Below are positions 10,313 to 29,488 of a stretch of 34,574 nt of DNA, piece after piece. The first letter of the stretch is position 1; every line of letters begins with the position of its first letter. The position numbers and the translations under genes are program-made. Source of the DNA: a virus; the IMG/VR virus record IMGVR_UViG_3300045146_000121, positions 1 through 34,574 of that record. The stretch is one strand, 5' to 3'. The notes under the pieces are model-generated. The model was not told where the DNA came from and did no database searches. It worked only from the letters and a program-made list of their open reading frames with translations.

Positions 10313-10675
10313 TTAATTTACTTGGTACATATACGTAATAGTGCCAGTTAATCCAGCAATATCATCCATAACCATAAAAGATACTCTTTTACCAGTTATA
10401 TTGTATTGCGTCATGATTTGAACATCATCACCTTGAAAATGAGCAAATACTGCTGTTGGTTCTCCTTCTATATTAAATGATGTAAGACAAAAATACGTAT
10501 CGTCGTTATAGTCCTTATAAAATGTTACTTGTTCAGTAACAGTTCTATATATATTATTTTTAAGACTATCACGTAAATTTATAATAGCACCACTATGTAT
10601 ATTAGCAGCAACATCCAACATATAGACGTATCTTATTTTCCCATTCTCATCCCTAGTAAGTACACCTAAACTCAT
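10313..10675 (-). CDS. Unknown small structural-type protein (120 aa)
   Basis: Not recognised. No signal peptide or membrane segment; mostly short beta strands (RYVYMLDVAA, TVTEQVTFYKDY, RVSFMVMDDI). It lies between a 233-aa beta-rich protein (4-base ATGA overlap) and the 1052-aa fibre (16-base gap). All three are co-oriented, so it is probably a tail-fibre accessory, connector or chaperone. Positional inference only. Confidence 0.65.
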   Translation of the reverse strand: MSLGVLTRDENGKIRYVYMLDVAANIHSGAIINLRDSLKNNIYRTVTEQVTFYKDYNDDTYFCLTSFNIEGEPTAVFAHFQGDDVQIMTQYNITGKRVSFMVMDDIAGLTGTITYMYQVN

Positions 10676-11381: not shown

Positions 11382-11618
11382 CTATTTACAAGTTTCTGAT
11401 GCTTTATTTAAGCGATCAGCATATTCTTTCATTTGAAAGTAGTTGTACGCGCATCTTTTAGCTTCTTCTAATAGACTATTAGACTGATTATAATCAATCA
11501 TAGGTTGCTCTACAGTAGGTACTACACATTTCTGTGGTACATATACTGTTTTCTCTGCACACCCACTAATAGTTAATACTGTGAAGAAAGCTAAGAGTAT
11601 TGTTACACTCCGAAACAT
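11382..11618 (-). CDS. Outer-membrane spanin lipoprotein (Rz1-like, o-spanin)
   Basis: Third-step lysis protein that joins the inner spanin to fuse the two membranes after the wall is cut. The 78-aa sequence has a short basic N-terminus, a hydrophobic stretch (VTILLAFFTVL) and a lipobox I-S-G-C with the lipidated Cys at 20. The mature part is short, with a Pro/Val segment and a helix. The gene begins inside the 3' end of the inner-spanin gene in another frame (53-base overlap), the classical overlapped Rz/Rz1 organisation. SD AGGGG. The lipobox plus position make this confident despite lack of sequence similarity to lambda Rz1. Confidence 0.85.
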   Translation of the reverse strand: MFRSVTILLAFFTVLTISGCAEKTVYVPQKCVVPTVEQPMIDYNQSNSLLEEAKRCAYNYFQMKEYADRLNKASETCK

Positions 11619-11895
11619 TACTATCCCCTTTCCAAGTTTGAATATACAAATACCTAGGCTTATATTGTGTTTTAATCACTTCTATTTCCGTAGGTAATTT
11701 AGCTAGACGCTCCTCATAGGATTTTCTAGCTAATTCACTATCTCTAGTAATTGTATTCAAAGATGTGGTTAACTCTGTAACTTTATTGGTTAGTTTAATA
11801 TTTTCTTCTTGAAGATTGGTTATCTTAAACCAAATAAGAAAAATAATAGCAAGAATAATAAATGATGATCCAAGTAATTTACTCAACAGAGGCAT
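11566..11895 (-). CDS. Inner-membrane spanin (Rz-like, i-spanin)
   Basis: 109-aa type II membrane protein with one N-terminal transmembrane segment (SSFIILAIIFLIWF, about 10-23). A periplasmic coiled coil follows (ITNLQEENIKLTNKVTELTT... ), then a C-terminal tail with YKPRYLYIQTW. This is the expected layout of an i-spanin. It overlaps the holin candidate upstream by 17 bases and contains the start of the o-spanin gene. SD AAGGAG lies 6 bases before the ATG. The presence of both spanins indicates a host with an outer membrane. Confidence 0.85.
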   Translation of the reverse strand: MPLLSKLLGSSFIILAIIFLIWFKITNLQEENIKLTNKVTELTTSLNTITRDSELARKSYEERLAKLPTEIEVIKTQYKPRYLYIQTWKGDSNVSECNNTLSFLHSINY

Positions 11896-12112
11896 CGGAC
11901 TCCTTTTTCATTCCAAGAGCTACCCCAAGACCAGCGAATAGTAATCCCATACCAGTCCCATAGTCTTGTAAACTTACTGGAAGATCTTTTACTAGTACAC
12001 TAACAAAAGTCAGCGCTACACCAGCTATAATAACAAAGGCTGCCAATGCTTTAGTAACATCGAAAGTCTCATTATCCTGCTCAGTAAACATGTGTTTTAA
12101 TACGTTAGCCAT
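11879..12112 (-). CDS. Holin candidate, two transmembrane segments (77 aa)
   Basis: Small protein with two hydrophobic helices (about residues 19-41 AALAAFVIIAGVALTFVSVL-type and 51-68 YGTGMGLLFAGLGVALGM) and a charged C-terminus (MKKESDASVE). This topology fits class II/III holins, with both ends probably cytoplasmic. It is placed between the endolysin (8-base overlap) and the inner spanin (17-base overlap), the usual lysis-cassette position. It would release the signal-less M15 endolysin. Small tail proteins can look similar, but the neighbours make holin the best call. Confidence 0.75.
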   Translation of the reverse strand: MANVLKHMFTEQDNETFDVTKALAAFVIIAGVALTFVSVLVKDLPVSLQDYGTGMGLLFAGLGVALGMKKESDASVE

Positions 12113-12620
12113 GATAAAGTCCTCTCAATTCTTGTAGAGTTATTGGTGTGAAGTTATGTTTATCGTCTTTAAGTTTTAATTTCTTATCAGATCTACCAGA
12201 TACAGTAGCAACATGTACCCAACCATTAGGAAAATACTCTGCAATAATCTCGGTATATGGTAATTTACTAGCTTCTTCTAGACATTTGATAAGACTTACT
12301 TCTTTAGGTTCTAGATCAGCAGCACAACCATTACTATGATGAGAGGTATCAGATGATCCAGCCAGATCATTTAATTTCTTACATCTGAATCCAGAATTAA
12401 TGTCTATAGAACCAATCTTATCCCTGAGTGGCTGTAGCATAGTCTTCGCTAAATACTCTATATTTTTCCATTCTTGTTCATTAGGAATATTCGCTATGTT
12501 GTTTCTAACAGCTAATTGACTGCTTACAAACTCCCAATATTTAAAACTTGGAGCACTTGGAATTGTCTCATCTAAGTTTCTGCCATAGTTTACACCAGCT
12601 AGTATATACTTTTGACTCAT
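12105..12620 (-). CDS. M15-family peptidoglycan peptidase (endolysin)
   Basis: Zinc D-Ala-D-Ala carboxypeptidase/L-Ala-D-Glu peptidase fold that cleaves peptide stems in the wall at lysis. It shows SGFRCKKLN (76-84) and the M15 motif S-x-H-x2-G-x-A-x-D (S93, H95, D102), then GWVHV (133-137) supplying the third zinc ligand, His136. At 171 aa the catalytic domain occupies most of the protein; no wall-binding domain or signal peptide is visible, so export needs a holin. SD AGGAG lies upstream of the ATG. It follows the PAS gene with a 4-base overlap and overlaps the holin candidate by 8. Confidence 0.9.
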   Translation of the reverse strand: MSQKYILAGVNYGRNLDETIPSAPSFKYWEFVSSQLAVRNNIANIPNEQEWKNIEYLAKTMLQPLRDKIGSIDINSGFRCKKLNDLAGSSDTSHHSNGCAADLEPKEVSLIKCLEEASKLPYTEIIAEYFPNGWVHVATVSGRSDKKLKLKDDKHNFTPITLQELRGLYHG

Positions 12621-13015
12621 TCCGACTCCTTCATCTTTTTATAGATTTCTTCATATTTTTTAATCTCATTAGCTGACATTTTTTGACGGATAGATGTAAA
12701 TCCTTTAAAACCATCCGCACGGTCGATCTTAGTTACTGTGGCATACACCCAGTAGTAATCACCATTCTTCGCACGATTTTTTACAAAACCTCTCCAAGTA
12801 CGTCCAGATTTTATGGTATCCCAAAGCTCTTTAAAAGCAGCTTTGGGCATATCCTCATGACGTAGAATATTATGAGGTTTATCTATTACATCTTCCCTTG
12901 CATATCCACTAATTTCGGTAAAAGCATGATTAATCTCTTTTATAATACCACGTTCATCCGTCTCACTAACGATATAAACGCCATCTGGTACGATAATATG
13001 ATTACTTTTGCTCAT
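12617..13015 (-). CDS. Stand-alone PAS protein of the Aer/CetB (flavin redox sensor) type
   Basis: 132-aa single PAS domain. It resembles the sensory domain of the aerotaxis receptor Aer and Campylobacter CetB: NHAFTEISGY (29-38), PHNILRHEDMPKAAF (47-61), W65, W74, VKNRAKNGDYYWV (78-90) and FTSIR (106-110). The RHxDMP segment and the aromatic residues correspond to those that hold FAD in Aer. There is no membrane anchor, HAMP, kinase, MCP or DNA-binding domain; a charged helix (EIKKYEEIYKKMKESE) ends the protein. The ATG at 13015 is chosen over an upstream in-frame start because GGAG sits 9-12 bases before it and the protein then begins like CetB. It lies inside the lysis operon, overlapping its neighbours by 14 and 4 bases. 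FAD binding and output are inferred. Confidence 0.88.
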   Translation of the reverse strand: MSKSNHIIVPDGVYIVSETDERGIIKEINHAFTEISGYAREDVIDKPHNILRHEDMPKAAFKELWDTIKSGRTWRGFVKNRAKNGDYYWVYATVTKIDRADGFKGFTSIRQKMSANEIKKYEEIYKKMKESE

Positions 13016-13361
13016 CGAAAAACTCCATATCAGAATTAATCTTTTTATCTGTTGACCGCCTTGAACCATGTTGATAATTATCTAACATAGACTTAGTAGT
13101 GTTAAATGCACTCATCATTTCTTGTTCATGACGATAGTTCTGTGCTTTAATATCACGTTCTAACATGGTCATAACATCTTCAATTTTAGTAGTATCTCGC
13201 ATTTCAGCTAGTTTAGTATATCTATCTTCAAGTCTTCCAATCTGCCTAACATAGAAACTGACTAGTCTAAACCCAAAGTATACTAAAGCAACATTAGCTA
13301 TAATAGATACTACAGCGATTTGTTGTAACACTTCATTAAATTGTGGGGGTTGATGCGTCAT
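13002..13361 (-). CDS. Membrane-anchored coiled-coil protein (119 aa), unknown
   Basis: One transmembrane segment near the N-terminus (about 14-36, AVVSIIANVALVYFGFRLVSF), followed by a long charged helix predicted as coiled coil (RQIGRLEDRYTKLAEMRD ... MMSAFNTTKSML) and a polar tail. Not recognised. It overlaps the holin-like gene by 4 bases and the PAS gene by 14. The position could fit an antiholin, a holin regulator or a membrane partner for the soluble PAS protein, by analogy with the CetA-CetB pair. That link is speculative, and no HAMP or MCP signalling domain is present. Confidence 0.72.
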   Translation of the reverse strand: MTHQPPQFNEVLQQIAVVSIIANVALVYFGFRLVSFYVRQIGRLEDRYTKLAEMRDTTKIEDVMTMLERDIKAQNYRHEQEMMSAFNTTKSMLDNYQHGSRRSTDKKINSDMEFFDEQK

Positions 13362-13696
13362 AGACTATCTCCTATACTCTCAGCTTTTTTCTCTAGAGAG
13401 TTTTTAACTATTAACCAGATTTTTTCACCAGCAATAGCACTTGCACCAGCGATTGCAAATTTCTGAATATCAGTTAAATCGAAATAACCTACAACTGTTA
13501 CACCAACGAATACACTTACTAATCCCCCTACGAATACGGCAGTGACAAAGGTGAAAATACACCAATGCCAGTTTACTCTACCGTCAGGTTTTCTAGTAAT
13601 TTCGTTAGGATTTAATGAATAGTGAAACATCTTATTTACCGTGGCGATGGCTACACCTAGCCCAAAGATCCATAGTATAGTCATCATGTCTTTCAT
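13358..13696 (-). CDS. Holin-like membrane protein (112 aa)
   Basis: Two clear hydrophobic helices (about 4-22 and 46-71, FTFVTAVFVGGLVSVFVGVTVV). A third amphipathic, small-residue-rich segment follows (FAIAGASAIAGEKIWLIV), then a Lys-rich tail. The 'IAGASAIAGE' helix recalls the C-terminal helix of several phage holin families with three segments. It is the first membrane gene of the lysis cluster, so two holin candidates exist here (this one and 11879-12112); one may be an antiholin or pinholin. It overlaps the next gene by 4 bases. Confidence 0.68.
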   Translation of the reverse strand: MKDMMTILWIFGLGVAIATVNKMFHYSLNPNEITRKPDGRVNWHWCIFTFVTAVFVGGLVSVFVGVTVVGYFDLTDIQKFAIAGASAIAGEKIWLIVKNSLEKKAESIGDSL

Positions 13697-13708: not shown

Positions 13709-13888
13709 TTAATGACAGTAAACTTTACCATCCTGATTAAGAGGCTCTTTACACTCTTTTAGAACCTCAGACTTAGCGTTAATACAAACGCCGTTTTCAT
13801 ACTTCTCACATGAAGCAATAGTAAGTTCACCAGTACTGCATCCGATAAATACTAAGGCTACGAGAGCCGTAATAACTACTTTTTTCAT
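13709..13888 (-). CDS. Small cysteine-rich lipoprotein (59 aa)
   Basis: Found by reading the ~190-base gap between the cupin gene and the holin-like gene. The ATG at 13886-13888 opens a 59-codon frame ending TAA at 13709-13711. It begins MKKVVITALVALVFIGC, a typical lipoprotein signal peptide with lipobox F-I-G-C and lipidated Cys17. The mature part has four further cysteines (27, 35, 46, 58), enough for two disulfides, and is hydrophilic. The start abuts the cupin stop and AGAAG precedes it. Known phage lipoproteins in such places include spanins and superinfection-exclusion/receptor-blocking proteins (Llp, Cor type). Which of these it is cannot be told. Confidence 0.75.
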   Translation of the reverse strand: MKKVVITALVALVFIGCSTGELTIASCEKYENGVCINAKSEVLKECKEPLNQDGKVYCH

Positions 13889-14272
13889 TCAGGCTTCTTC
13901 TATAGTAATATCATTTATTTTTATTCTATTTTCTATAGTCATAACATTATGACAATCCTCGTCCAATGGGCAGTTTTTCTCAGGGTCATAAACTTCACCA
14001 TCAAGATCTCTATTAGCAAATACACAATACCATGTAGTATTTTCCTCTAATGCAGTAACATTATGTACTTTATCCTTACGAATAACAATAAAAGTTGGAG
14101 CATGGAAAATTTTCTCTTTACCATCAACTTCTACTTTTGCAGAACCAGTAGCCAATAAAGACACATGATCATATTTATGTTTATGCCCACCTATAGTTTG
14201 TCCTACTTCTGTAAATAATTTCTGACGAATCCATACGTTTGCGTAACAACCTAGTAATTCATGCTCTTTCAT
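13889..14272 (-). CDS. Cupin-fold protein
   Basis: 127-aa single-domain cupin. The first motif is GGHKHKYDHVSLLATG (28-43), with H30/H32 and an acidic residue D35 as likely metal ligands. The second is FHAPTFIVIRKDKVHNVTAL, with a His in the usual position, followed by the strand TTWYCVFANRD. Similar small cupins are found among phage tail-fibre genes, but their substrate is unknown (sugar modification, small-molecule binding or fibre assembly). The start overlaps the stop of the preceding 97-aa gene by one base, and the stop abuts the lipoprotein start. Confidence 0.75.
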   Translation of the reverse strand: MKEHELLGCYANVWIRQKLFTEVGQTIGGHKHKYDHVSLLATGSAKVEVDGKEKIFHAPTFIVIRKDKVHNVTALEENTTWYCVFANRDLDGEVYDPEKNCPLDEDCHNVMTIENRIKINDITIEEA

Positions 14273-14577: not shown

Positions 14578-17463
14578 TTACCAATTCACAATTAATATTC
14601 CTTGATAACCAGCCCCTCCGATACAGTATGGGGACCCTGATACAGCCATAACTGCACCGCCTCCTCCACCTGCACCGTATCCTTGACCAGCTTGACCATT
14701 TTGAGACATACCGGAGCTATTCACACCTCCAGCTTGTCCGCCGTTTCCACCGGAACCAGCTCCGCCACCGCCTCCAATAAAGGTGTTGGTTGGGATAGCC
14801 CCTCCCGAGTAGTTGCTACTGTTGGACCCTTTTTGTTTTGCCGCTCCCCCGGAAAAAAGGGACATCCCTCCAAAGGTTTGTCCGCCACCGTTTCCACCTT
14901 TAAATTCTGTTGACCCGAAAAAAGTGCTTCCACCTACTGCACCAGCCCCACCGCCACTTAACCCACCAGCTCCGCCTGACCCGATTATTACTGTTATAGC
15001 TTGACCTGAAGTTACGTTTATGATTTGTGGGATAAAACCTACTCCTCCGCCCCCTCCAGCAGTTATGCTCGTGCCGTATCCGCCTCCGCCTCCGCCACCT
15101 CCGCCGTGAGCAGACACCATTACTTTACTCACCCCTGTTGGAACGGTAAATGTACCTGACGATGTGAAGGTTTGAGAATTTGTGGGAAGCCCTCCCCCAC
15201 TGAATCCTGCGAGTTCTTGTCGGACGAATGCCGTTGTTGCGACTTGTGTCGTATTCGTTCCCGTCGTAGCCGTAGGGGCTGTTGGAGTCCCCGTTAAACC
15301 AGGCGATGCCAACGGAGCTTTCGCATCTAATTGTGGTTGAATCGGTGCCGTTACTCCGTCAAGATAACTAAGTTCCGCCGAAGATACCGCCCCGATTGAT
15401 GTTGTTGAAGGTAGCGTTACCGTGCCCGTGAATGTTGGGCTGATAATCGGGGCTTTTGCGTCTAATTGCGTTTGAATATTAGAGGTGGCACCGTTCAAAT
15501 AAGAATATTCTTGTTGAGAAATATTTGCGACTGCATAATTCAAACAACGCCAATAACCTAATTCGCCATTTTCACAAACGAAATCAGCAACATCCCCTAC
15601 AAAAGTCGTTAGGCTATCCCCTGCTGGGAGGATTAACGACGTCGCATTGTGAGCAAGTGTCACGGCACCGTCAAACACCAAACGACGAATCGTTCCCGTA
15701 GTGGAAACTCCTAGCGAAGTGATTGTTGCGGTTCCCGTTATGTGAATCGTATCCCCCGAACCTTTTGTTCCGATGGTGGTTGTTGTTGCTGACGCAATGG
15801 GGGTTCCTAAGCGAGCCTCGATGTTAATATTGGCTGACCCATCAAATGGCTCCCCGTTTATTGTTCTAGCTGTTGTAAGTGAAGAAGCAGAACCATCAAT
15901 ACTGGAAATACCAGTCAATGCTAATGAAGCACTAGCACGGTTGATAGTTACAGCAGTAGTACCGATATACATTGTTTGGTCATTCAATGGTACTGTTCCC
16001 GTTGAAGACGGTAAAGTAATTGTTGTTCCATCAGTTCCATCAAGCGTAATGGACTTGTTGATTGTCAACGTTTTAGAACTGCCAGCAATACTAAATCCAG
16101 TTGTATTAGCAGTCAATGACAATCCATTTACGCTAGTCAACCCAGCAAGTGTTAATTGTGTACCTCCAGCTGTAATTGCCGTAGTACCAATGGTAACAAC
16201 ATTACCTGACAATGTATTACTACCCAAATCGATTGTTTTATTTGTCAATGTTTGTGTACTATTGATTGTAGCTATTTCATTTCCAGAAATTTGTATTTTT
16301 CCAGTTCCCTTTGGGATGAAATTAATACCAACATTGACATCTGTTCCTGATGCAGTAATTGACGGATTATTTCCTGTAGAAGCATTTGCTACAGTAATTT
16401 CATTAACAGCTGATGCAGTTGTATTGAAAATTATACTTTCATTACCATTGGCATCAGCAACGTATCCACCATTTACAATCTTAGGAGCAGTTAATGTTTT
16501 TCCTGACAAAATTTCAGTTCCAGCAATTGTAGCTAGCGTACCTGATGTTGGTAACGTTACATTAGTTGTGTTGGTTGCAGTCAACGTAGTAGCAAATGCA
16601 CCAGCTGTAATAAGATTACCGCCGAGCGTAATTGTTTTACCCGTGTTTGCTACACCTGTACCACCATATTGACCAGCAATAATAGAAGCATTCCATGTAC
16701 CAGAAGACAACGTTCCAACGGAAGTCAATGAAGAAGATATAACGCTAGCACCAAGAGTTGTTGAACTAAGAACAGCTGTGTTACCAATTCTATATGCAAA
16801 ACCAGATGAAATATCAACATTTTGATTGAATGTCCAAGCATCGTTTGCATCAACCCAAAGAATTGTTTTATCTGTATTCCCCTTTAGTGTAATACCACCT
16901 CCATCTGCGGTTACATCTGTAGGAATAGCAGTTGATCCAAGTTCGATATTTTTATCATCTACCATCATTGTTGCTGTATTCAATGTAGTAGTAGTCCCAT
17001 TGACAGTTACATTTCCATTAATTACACAATCATTTATTGTTGTCAACCCAGTTATAGAAAGAGAACCAGAAATGTTTGTATTACCAGTTGTTCCGTCTAC
17101 TGAAAATTTTACAACTTCATCTGCAGTATTTCTAACATTCAATGTATTTGTATTTACGGTTGAAGCATAAAGACTCAACCATTTTTTAGTACTGTCACCA
17201 AGGTAGACTGTGTTTGTAGAAGAAGGAAAAATACTACCATCAGAGTTTAATGAACTACTGTTGATAGATCCATTGATTGTTACGTCACCGAAGATATTGA
17301 TATCAGTATATTGCCCAGACGTATCAGTTGCATTACCTAAAATGATTGTTTTTAGATTACCAGCCGTAGCATCAGAAGCAAGAGTAGTATTTCCATGAAT
17401 AATGCCGTCTTGAAGAACTTCAAGTGTATTTTTGATTTTGAAATTGACATTCTGTGTAGCCAT
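14578..17463 (-). CDS. Tail fibre/adhesin with glycine-rich tip (961 aa)
   Basis: Distal fibre protein likely to decide host range. The N-terminal ~540 residues are beta-rich repeats of the aquatic T4-like fibre type (VDDKNIELGSTAIPTDVTAD, ITLKGNTDKTILWVDAN, GTWNASIIAGQYGGTGVAN). Then come INGEPFDGSANI and a variable region with SYLNGATSNIQTQLDAKAP repeats and QVATTAFVRQELAGF. The last ~180 residues are a glycine-rich domain with many poly-Gly runs, like the receptor-binding gp38-type adhesins of T2/S16 phages, here fused to the fibre. The ATG at 17463 follows an in-frame TTG at 17472 that is also possible. A late-promoter octamer lies at 17500-17507. DNA from about 15,850 down to 14,600 is clearly GC-richer than the rest. 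Confidence 0.85.
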   Translation of the reverse strand: MATQNVNFKIKNTLEVLQDGIIHGNTTLASDATAGNLKTIILGNATDTSGQYTDINIFGDVTINGSINSSSLNSDGSIFPSSTNTVYLGDSTKKWLSLYASTVNTNTLNVRNTADEVVKFSVDGTTGNTNISGSLSITGLTTINDCVINGNVTVNGTTTTLNTATMMVDDKNIELGSTAIPTDVTADGGGITLKGNTDKTILWVDANDAWTFNQNVDISSGFAYRIGNTAVLSSTTLGASVISSSLTSVGTLSSGTWNASIIAGQYGGTGVANTGKTITLGGNLITAGAFATTLTATNTTNVTLPTSGTLATIAGTEILSGKTLTAPKIVNGGYVADANGNESIIFNTTASAVNEITVANASTGNNPSITASGTDVNVGINFIPKGTGKIQISGNEIATINSTQTLTNKTIDLGSNTLSGNVVTIGTTAITAGGTQLTLAGLTSVNGLSLTANTTGFSIAGSSKTLTINKSITLDGTDGTTITLPSSTGTVPLNDQTMYIGTTAVTINRASASLALTGISSIDGSASSLTTARTINGEPFDGSANINIEARLGTPIASATTTTIGTKGSGDTIHITGTATITSLGVSTTGTIRRLVFDGAVTLAHNATSLILPAGDSLTTFVGDVADFVCENGELGYWRCLNYAVANISQQEYSYLNGATSNIQTQLDAKAPIISPTFTGTVTLPSTTSIGAVSSAELSYLDGVTAPIQPQLDAKAPLASPGLTGTPTAPTATTGTNTTQVATTAFVRQELAGFSGGGLPTNSQTFTSSGTFTVPTGVSKVMVSAHGGGGGGGGGYGTSITAGGGGGVGFIPQIINVTSGQAITVIIGSGGAGGLSGGGAGAVGGSTFFGSTEFKGGNGGGQTFGGMSLFSGGAAKQKGSNSSNYSGGAIPTNTFIGGGGGAGSGGNGGQAGGVNSSGMSQNGQAGQGYGAGGGGGAVMAVSGSPYCIGGAGYQGILIVNW

Positions 17464-27361: not shown

Positions 27362-29488
27362 TTATACTGGAATTCTTTTATCAACATTAAACCAGTTAGC
27401 AGTGACTTTAAAATCAACTTGAGATAAATTTACAGAGCTAGTATTCTCTCCAATGTAAAGATATCTATTGTTGTCAATTCCATGACCGTAATTTACGATT
27501 TTCAAAACATATGTCTCATTATGAACAAGATTTGCGTTTGTATTAGATGAATAGTATGTAATGACTGGAATTGCATTGATTCCAATACTATCATTTTCTA
27601 GTGTTTCTTGAACACCACCGAATGTCATATCTGAACCTTCATCGAAGAACAGATTATTATCACCAAACACCATTGCAAAAGTTGTATTAGCTTCGTCCTC
27701 TAAAGAAGAAGAACGGCTAGTTGTATGTGTAATTTCGTCTTCTTGCATTATTACAATGTCATAACCGCCATACAATGACATGTTTAATAGATAATTATAG
27801 AGACTTAGATCCAATTCAGTTAGAGCATTTACAGTATCACTGTTTAAGTTGTATTTTATGCTTTCCGCATTATAATAGAAAGAAATCGCATCCAATGTGT
27901 CTTCATGAAGGGGTGCTTCATAAAATTTATCAGCATATGTTTCAGTTTGAGACGAAAGAGTATCTATGCCATCGTATGTATCCATGACAATTGTATCAAA
28001 GTACTTGCTCAAATCAAGTTCTGTAGCTGAGTTTACTGTATCACTATCAGTTCCAATATTATTAAGTTTCATTGTGACAGTTACATTTTCAATGTTTGTA
28101 TACGCATTGAGAATATTTACTTCATCATGCTCGAATGAAATCGTTCTGATATCTTTAAGATCATTGTCATTCAAAAGACCAAGAGTATCAGCATCATAAA
28201 CCCTGGAGCTAACACCCTCATAAAACAATACATTGTGATAATATTTACTATTGTCTACCTCTGAGAACGATGGTAATCTGTCAACAGCTTCTACGAGTTT
28301 GAAAACGTTATAGATGATGTTCCATCCAACTGGGTGTGCAATTGGAAGAATAAATCTTTCGAAAACTTCTTTTGCGAATGTAGCATCAAGTTTATAGATA
28401 AATGGCACAACTTCATCTACATTATATGATGTAACATATTCCTTGAACGCATAGCCTTTATCATAAAATTCTTGTCCAGCAAGCGTATATGGAGATAATG
28501 TATTAGGATTTATTTCACCATATTTGATGTTAGATCTTGTACTTTGATATATCTCAGAAATAGTAATACGAGGTTGCGTATCAGCTGACACAACGTCATT
28601 TTCATCAACCTTTACTGTAAGGTCAAGATTTTCTTGAGAACCCAAGTTTTTCAAAAGGTTGAACAAAAATGTATACAACCCAAGACGACCCTTATTTTGA
28701 GTAATCTGAGCACTAAGTACTTGAATATCTTCTTTTTCGATACGCCCATATTCAGTTACAGTAATATTGGAAATGGTAACATTTCCATTGAATTGAAATG
28801 TAAATTTTGTCGCTTCAGCACCAGTAGATCTACTGGTGGTATTATAGTCGATGCGAAATCTGTGAGTACCAGTGCTAGAAGCAATATATGAATGAACTAG
28901 CTTACCATCATTTTCTTGACCACAAAACACCTTTACAAACGTACCAGCTTGAATGCTATCAACGTCAAAACTGATTTCAAATTTAGTTTTATCACCACTA
29001 AATACTTGATCCTGTTCTAGAGTATACCAAATATTATTATTTCTGGTTGTAACTTTAGAAAAAACGAAATTGTTCTTTATTCTATCGAATCTAAAAATAT
29101 TACCACCAATAGAAAATGTGTCTCTATCATAGTATTCATATACTGTAGTGGTTGCTGTTTTAGAATTGAATACAGGTACTTTTACGCCCCAAAATTGATA
29201 TCCATAATCAAACAAATTATTTGTTATAAGGTTCGGATAAACAATATTGGTGATGTCTTGAATAACACTTGCATATTGTTTAATGAATGAATCTAATTCA
29301 CTATCATCATTTTCAATATCGATTTTATCAATGTCAAAACGGTTTGTGAAGTTGTCGATGTATTGATAGTCATTATTCAATTGTTTCAAGAAAGAGGCTA
29401 CTACTTTTTCAAATGTAGTGTCCTTATACTTGTCAGGAAGCAATCTATCTACAAACAGTTCTAATGTTTTTTGTTGATCAATGATCAT
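27362..29488 (-). CDS. Baseplate wedge/tail protein (708 aa), gp7-position
   Basis: Follows the gp6-like gene by 12 bases, the place of gp7 in T4. The N-terminal ~70 residues (LELFVDRLLPDKYKDTTFEKVVASFLKQLN) are helical, in the manner of the gpI/gp7 tail proteins that wrap around gp6. A jelly-roll-like beta region follows (GGNIFRFDRIKNNFVFSKVT; FKISFDVDSIQAGTFVKVFCG-type strands). Residues ~450-570 contain several similar Leu/Asp-rich units (SDTVNSATELDLSKYFDT, SDTVNALTELDLSLYNYL). The identity is inferred from position and N-terminal pattern; sequence similarity to T4 gp7 is not obvious by eye. SD AGGGGAG before the ATG. Confidence 0.68.
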   Translation of the reverse strand: MIIDQQKTLELFVDRLLPDKYKDTTFEKVVASFLKQLNNDYQYIDNFTNRFDIDKIDIENDDSELDSFIKQYASVIQDITNIVYPNLITNNLFDYGYQFWGVKVPVFNSKTATTTVYEYYDRDTFSIGGNIFRFDRIKNNFVFSKVTTRNNNIWYTLEQDQVFSGDKTKFEISFDVDSIQAGTFVKVFCGQENDGKLVHSYIASSTGTHRFRIDYNTTSRSTGAEATKFTFQFNGNVTISNITVTEYGRIEKEDIQVLSAQITQNKGRLGLYTFLFNLLKNLGSQENLDLTVKVDENDVVSADTQPRITISEIYQSTRSNIKYGEINPNTLSPYTLAGQEFYDKGYAFKEYVTSYNVDEVVPFIYKLDATFAKEVFERFILPIAHPVGWNIIYNVFKLVEAVDRLPSFSEVDNSKYYHNVLFYEGVSSRVYDADTLGLLNDNDLKDIRTISFEHDEVNILNAYTNIENVTVTMKLNNIGTDSDTVNSATELDLSKYFDTIVMDTYDGIDTLSSQTETYADKFYEAPLHEDTLDAISFYYNAESIKYNLNSDTVNALTELDLSLYNYLLNMSLYGGYDIVIMQEDEITHTTSRSSSLEDEANTTFAMVFGDNNLFFDEGSDMTFGGVQETLENDSIGINAIPVITYYSSNTNANLVHNETYVLKIVNYGHGIDNNRYLYIGENTSSVNLSQVDFKVTANWFNVDKRIPV

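Follow-up and report, generated by a model that had tools for sequence, protein, structure and literature searches.

A stand-alone CetB/Aer-type PAS gene in the lysis cassette of a T4-type phage

PAS sensors of the Aer/CetB kind allow bacteria such as Arcobacter and Campylobacter to swim toward favorable oxygen levels. What, then, might a single-domain copy of such a sensor be doing among the lysis genes of a phage? The DNA analyzed here, hereafter the window, is the whole of a 34.6-kb IMG/VR virus record (34,574 nt) of a T4-type myovirus; its gp46- and gp6-like genes match those of T4-like phages, and it is probably a phage fragment. Its sister contig L028, recovered from a different sample, carries the tail sheath; it is 99.8% identical over 5.9 kb and stops at window position 28698, short of the lysis cassette. 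The PAS gene is real and unusual, and its family and location were correctly read in an earlier note on this DNA; the analysis below concerns where the gene came from, what its product probably binds, and which roles are compatible with its surroundings.

The gene occupies 13015..12617 on the minus strand, is intact, and encodes 132 amino acids with one PAS domain. A GGAG Shine-Dalgarno site lies seven bases 5' of the ATG (TATGGAGTTTTTCG-ATG), and for this reason the 132-aa start is preferred over that of a mechanical 150-aa open reading frame. The genes of the block, in order of transcription, are as follows:

13709..13888, minus strand: 59-aa lipoprotein, upstream within the block, with weak phage lipoprotein and Cor-like matches
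13358..13696, minus strand: 112-aa multi-TM protein, possible holin (phrog_175 holin, at an E-value of 0.028 only)
13002..13361, minus strand: 119-aa protein, one N-terminal TM helix followed by predicted long helices/coiled coil, candidate partner of the PAS protein
12617..13015, minus strand: stand-alone CetB/Aer-type FAD-PAS protein, 132 aa (Pfam, Aer match, structural model, pocket residues)
12105..12620, minus strand: endolysin, Peptidase M15_3, 171 aa (Pfam, 5.3e-12; PHROG phrog_894 endolysin, 1.8e-25)
11879..12112, minus strand: 77-aa small two-TM protein, holin candidate from sequence alone
11566..11895, minus strand: 109-aa i-spanin-like protein (phrog_739 Rz-like spanin, 4e-5)
11382..11618, minus strand: 78-aa o-spanin-like lipoprotein overlapping the i-spanin (phrog_456 Rz-like spanin, 0.005; lipobox LTISGC)

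Since the neighbors that run from 13696 down to 11382, on either side of the 119-aa and PAS genes, comprise an M15_3 endolysin, a spanin-like pair, and two small multi-TM proteins, "lysis cassette" is a fair label, within which the holin assignments of the 112-aa and 77-aa proteins are weak; the latter matched no Pfam or PHROG family. Pfam and PHROG searches thus bore out the earlier description of a gene lying between a membrane coiled-coil gene and the endolysin in a lysis operon, and the coordinates, strand, and 132-aa length reported there were reproduced, as were the overlaps of exactly 14 nt between the start of the PAS gene and the 119-aa gene (13361..13002) and exactly 4 nt between its stop and the endolysin gene (12620..12105). 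Of the eight junctions in the stretch bounded by the 120-aa gene at 10313 and the 112-aa gene that ends at 13696, seven overlap by 4–53 nt; because overlaps are the norm in the block, those of the PAS gene provide no special evidence of coupling. A scan of the block for promoters and terminators returned no more sites than shuffled sequences did. Searches of the viral and phage collections gave no relatives for the two membrane proteins of 119 and 112 aa, and the 119-aa protein resembled HAMP or MCP domains no more than expected by chance. Its weak matches in Campylobacterales (E of about 0.004–0.01, in 5 of 200 genomes) were rejected as chance, since they fall in unrelated proteins: one chemoreceptor, an ATPase (twice), a mechanosensitive-type channel, and a tRNA synthetase. 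Between the tail-fibre gene and the block lies a 127-aa cupin-like protein (13889-14272) that is weakly similar to short tail fibre families.

The PAS protein almost certainly belongs to the CetB type. Its Pfam matches are far beyond chance (PAS_3, E 1.5e-14; PAS, E 1.4e-11), and the closest solved structure is the E. coli Aer PAS domain (PDB 8dik, E 2.1e-31). An AlphaFold2 model (pLDDT 92.7) contains one PAS domain and a C-terminal helix, and superposes on 8dik with TM scores of 0.87/0.90, ahead of all other structures, at 41% identity. The FAD-contact residues of Magnetospirillum gryphiswaldense CetB2 are H54, N55, R58, F67, W71, N86, V100, and R117, and substitution at three of these eight abolishes function (PMC12442639), the corresponding changes in the phage protein being W65M, F61Q, and N80H; all eight are identical in the phage protein, whose pocket comprises H48, N49, R52, H53, D55, F61, W65, W74, N80, V94, and R110. 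The FAD-contacting residues of Aer (PMC9668731, PMC2628428) are likewise identical at H53, R57, H58, D60, W70, N85, and R115, the sole exception being M69, which is Leu in the phage protein, as it is in each of the 87 cellular stand-alone homologues examined. Of three Aer changes known to stabilize the free PAS domain, two (G at 28, V at 99) occur naturally in the phage protein. With the contact residues of both Aer and CetB2 present, flavin binding is, as judged from sequence, very likely. The redox potentials reported for CetB2 and Aer are low, with midpoints of -274 mV and -290 mV, respectively.

The earlier assignment to an Aer/CetB-type PAS therefore agrees with both the HMM searches and the model comparison. 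The features on which it was based (RHEDMP, KNRAKNGDYYW, SIR, and tryptophans W65, W74, and W89) are all present, and the CetB-like stand-alone form, with no output domain, is borne out by the length of 132 aa, by Pfam matches to PAS only, and by the one-PAS model. The earlier note had also staked its reading on conservation of the pocket among homologues, and these positions proved to be 99–100% conserved in the 87 cellular proteins, except N49 (89%) and V94 (79%). LOV domains were among the structural and HMM matches, so a blue-light sensor in place of a redox sensor was weighed as well; Aer is the closest match by far, and the phage protein contains zero cysteines, whereas C33 (91%) and C109 (84%) are common in the cellular homologues. 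Lacking a cysteine, the protein could form no flavin-Cys adduct, which excludes a classical LOV photoreceptor and leaves a blue-light role of any kind extremely improbable.

Close matches to the PAS protein were found in 91 of 101 Arcobacteraceae genomes, the best being about 57% identical; most are short open frames of 125–170 aa, that is, stand-alone forms, and there are often several per genome. In trees, the phage protein falls inside the Campylobacterota stand-alone clade (bootstrap 94) on a long branch, a placement that holds at clade level only. When the first 19.9 kb of the window was compared by blastn with 104 Arcobacteraceae genomes, the PAS gene accounted for nearly all of the matches listed. 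The only other listed match to Arcobacteraceae DNA, at 15224-15341, is part of a 964-aa fibre gene and probably reflects a shared tail-collar repeat. The clade, the long branch, and the nearly sole blastn match together indicate a host-type gene in a phage that is no recent copy of any sampled one, and its sequence ancestry is in Campylobacterota, probably in an Arcobacteraceae-like bacterium. A search for the endolysin in 299 Campylobacterales genomes, made for host inference, returned no match. At 47 of 50 cellular loci, a chemoreceptor match lies within 1.5 kb of the PAS gene, which is the CetA/CetB arrangement, and Arcobacter plasmids show the same pairing. Three cellular stand-alone loci (L034, L047, and L052) have no chemoreceptor match within that distance; the PAS gene of L047 adjoins CheW- and CheY-like genes, resembling the orphan CetB5 reported in Magnetospirillum.

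A host gene beside phage genes could also be the product of misassembly, and the region is indeed known from one contig only, L028 ending before it. The PAS gene, however, shares bases with a phage gene at each end, is not flanked by host DNA, and is distinct from every host copy found, which makes an assembly chimera very improbable.

Searches of 2.9 million viral contigs, using the protein and two profiles, found no other stand-alone copy; these scans rely on short conserved patterns, which a very diverged relative could escape, and the second profile, run in case the first missed cellular-type variants, added nothing. A scan of 50,697 phage records likewise returned essentially only whole Aer-type receptors, and those on viral records sit in prophage-like flanks or on P1-like elements. 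In one such viral contig (L026:5899-9164 and on), the receptor gene is split by a transposase-like insert after about 129 codons. The nearest relative of the endolysin, 44% identical, is the M15 endolysin of a 115-kb viral contig (L010, IMGVR_UViG_3300029258_002722), in which PAS is absent. The same contig encodes a tandem pair of 434-aa radical-SAM-like proteins that contain CxxxCxxC motifs, with genes for small proteins after them (L010:1247-5129); this could be a peptide-modification cluster. Twenty phage records related by tail sheath, among which is the sister contig, carry neither the PAS gene nor this M15 endolysin, and comparison of the cassettes revealed no lysis genes in common; they are fragmentary and too distant for the region to be aligned, so that absence from them proves little. 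Our search of open-licence papers yielded no phage lysis cassette with a PAS sensor, in line with the earlier note, which knew of none described.

Such rarity is what might be expected of a passenger gene (moron). Accessory genes are frequent in phage late blocks, the stand-alone form is known from one contig only, and the other viral and phage matches are whole host-type receptors; a host gene could thus have been inserted in the late block and remain intact while being selected for neither lysis nor taxis, or it could serve some other flavin-dependent process. Against this, every pocket residue has been kept despite about 43% divergence from the nearest homologue, the start site is good, and GC content is close to that of the window (0.358 versus 0.351), with a composition that resembles the neighboring genes. 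Taken together, these are signs of long residence under selection, and we regard mere carriage as rather unlikely.

The distribution of changes along the protein is more specific. Across the 44 columns conserved in at least 90% (weighted) of cellular copies, the phage protein keeps all 31 that lie in residues 46–132, including the C-terminal helix, and loses 5 of the 13 in residues 1–45, which form the N-cap and first strands (E6H, L9V, A28I, E42D, and G45D). The split at residue 45 has a Fisher p of 0.001, for a cut placed after inspecting the data; in the most diverged cellular copies, losses are spread throughout the protein. In Aer, the N-cap is required for relay of the flavin signal to HAMP (PMC9668731). 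The phage sequence therefore reads as a sensor whose pocket and body are retained and whose relay is altered, a pattern compatible with a decoy on host receptors as well as with a new partner.

We propose that a T4-type phage captured a CetB-type stand-alone PAS gene from a Campylobacterota bacterium, probably Arcobacteraceae-like, and that it keeps the product as an intact, presumably FAD-binding redox sensor translated with the lysis genes. Late in infection, the protein would load host FAD and dock, as CetB does, on host CetA-type chemoreceptors; given the divergence of the N-cap, which relays the flavin signal in Aer, it may act there as a surrogate or decoy subunit and change the energy taxis and swimming of the infected cell. 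We assign this explanation as a whole a probability of roughly 0.4, and the docking or decoy mechanism taken separately is somewhat more tentative. Ancestry and the chemoreceptor context of nearly every homologue are the support that we count for docking. CetB2 directly binds CetA2, and the dosage of CetBA2 shifts the oxygen response; other CetB paralogues of the same genome failed to replace CetB2, so docking on host receptors would not be automatic (PMC12442639). Two further points weigh against it: no MCPsignal or other chemoreceptor domain was found in the window, itself a fragment, or in the overlapping contig L028, and a gene expressed late, next to lysis genes, would have little time to affect swimming. 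Entry of the phage protein into the host energy-taxis complex is nonetheless plausible from its ancestry.

The same altered relay would also suit a new partner within the cassette. The PAS protein could read respiratory redox through FAD and pass the signal to the 119-aa protein and on to the holin, so that lysis comes earlier or later depending on the energy state; the PAS and 119-aa proteins would then amount to a CetB/CetA pair built anew, with the holin as its output. The PAS gene lies between a membrane gene and the endolysin in one tight block and has no chemoreceptor neighbor, and the 119-aa protein has a TM helix and then long helices (at 6–55 and 60–118), as a PAS partner might. Yet overlaps of 4–53 nt are ordinary in this block, no match of the 119-aa protein is a credible relative or exceeds chance similarity to HAMP or MCP, and the linkage was seen in no second phage of the collections searched, the best endolysin relative (L010) lacking PAS. 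Control of lysis by the PAS protein is unsupported beyond its position, and we consider it unlikely; more doubtful still is the fuller version, in which the phage rebuilt a bipartite CetB/CetA-like switch from a host PAS and its own membrane coiled-coil protein as a redox-gated lysis clock, and we know of no holin/antiholin system like it. Docking on host receptors thus appears slightly likelier than either lysis timing or passenger cargo.

Were the gene functional, a lytic phage would sense or rewrite host redox physiology late in infection, with the infected cell steered in oxygen gradients or its burst timed. Molecular candidates for lysis timing set by metabolic state are few, and our literature search turned up no phage that controls host taxis by means of a receptor subunit it has captured. 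The locus also shows that members of the abundant CetB family of Campylobacterota pass into phages.

Among known systems, the nearest counterparts are Campylobacter jejuni CetB and M. gryphiswaldense CetB2, each the PAS half of a bipartite CetA/CetB energy-taxis receptor. Like CetB, the phage protein has a single PAS domain, the same FAD-pocket residues, and no output domain, and it shares the C-terminal helix of the cellular stand-alone homologues. Unlike CetB, it has no adjacent CetA, HAMP, or MCP gene, is located in a phage lysis cassette, has no cysteines, and replaces E6, L9, A28, and G45, all of which the cellular copies of Arcobacteraceae conserve. The E. coli Aer PAS domain shares its fold and FAD ligands, whereas Aer is one chain with HAMP and a signalling domain. 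Homologous PAS domains do occur on viral records, in the Aer-type receptors of P1-like phages (SJ46) and of prophage-like IMG/VR contigs, but these are whole chemoreceptors, mostly of more than 500 aa (one broken by insertion), and lie outside lysis cassettes. Phage PAS proteins in BFVD (uncultured Caudovirales, and Cellulophaga phages phi18:3 and phi19:1), some of them 165–240 aa, share the PAS fold but are only 11–31% identical to the present protein and belong to other PAS classes. The sensor family is thus already known, and its occurrence in a phage, within a lysis cassette, appears to be new; what is novel is the carrier and the location rather than the domain.
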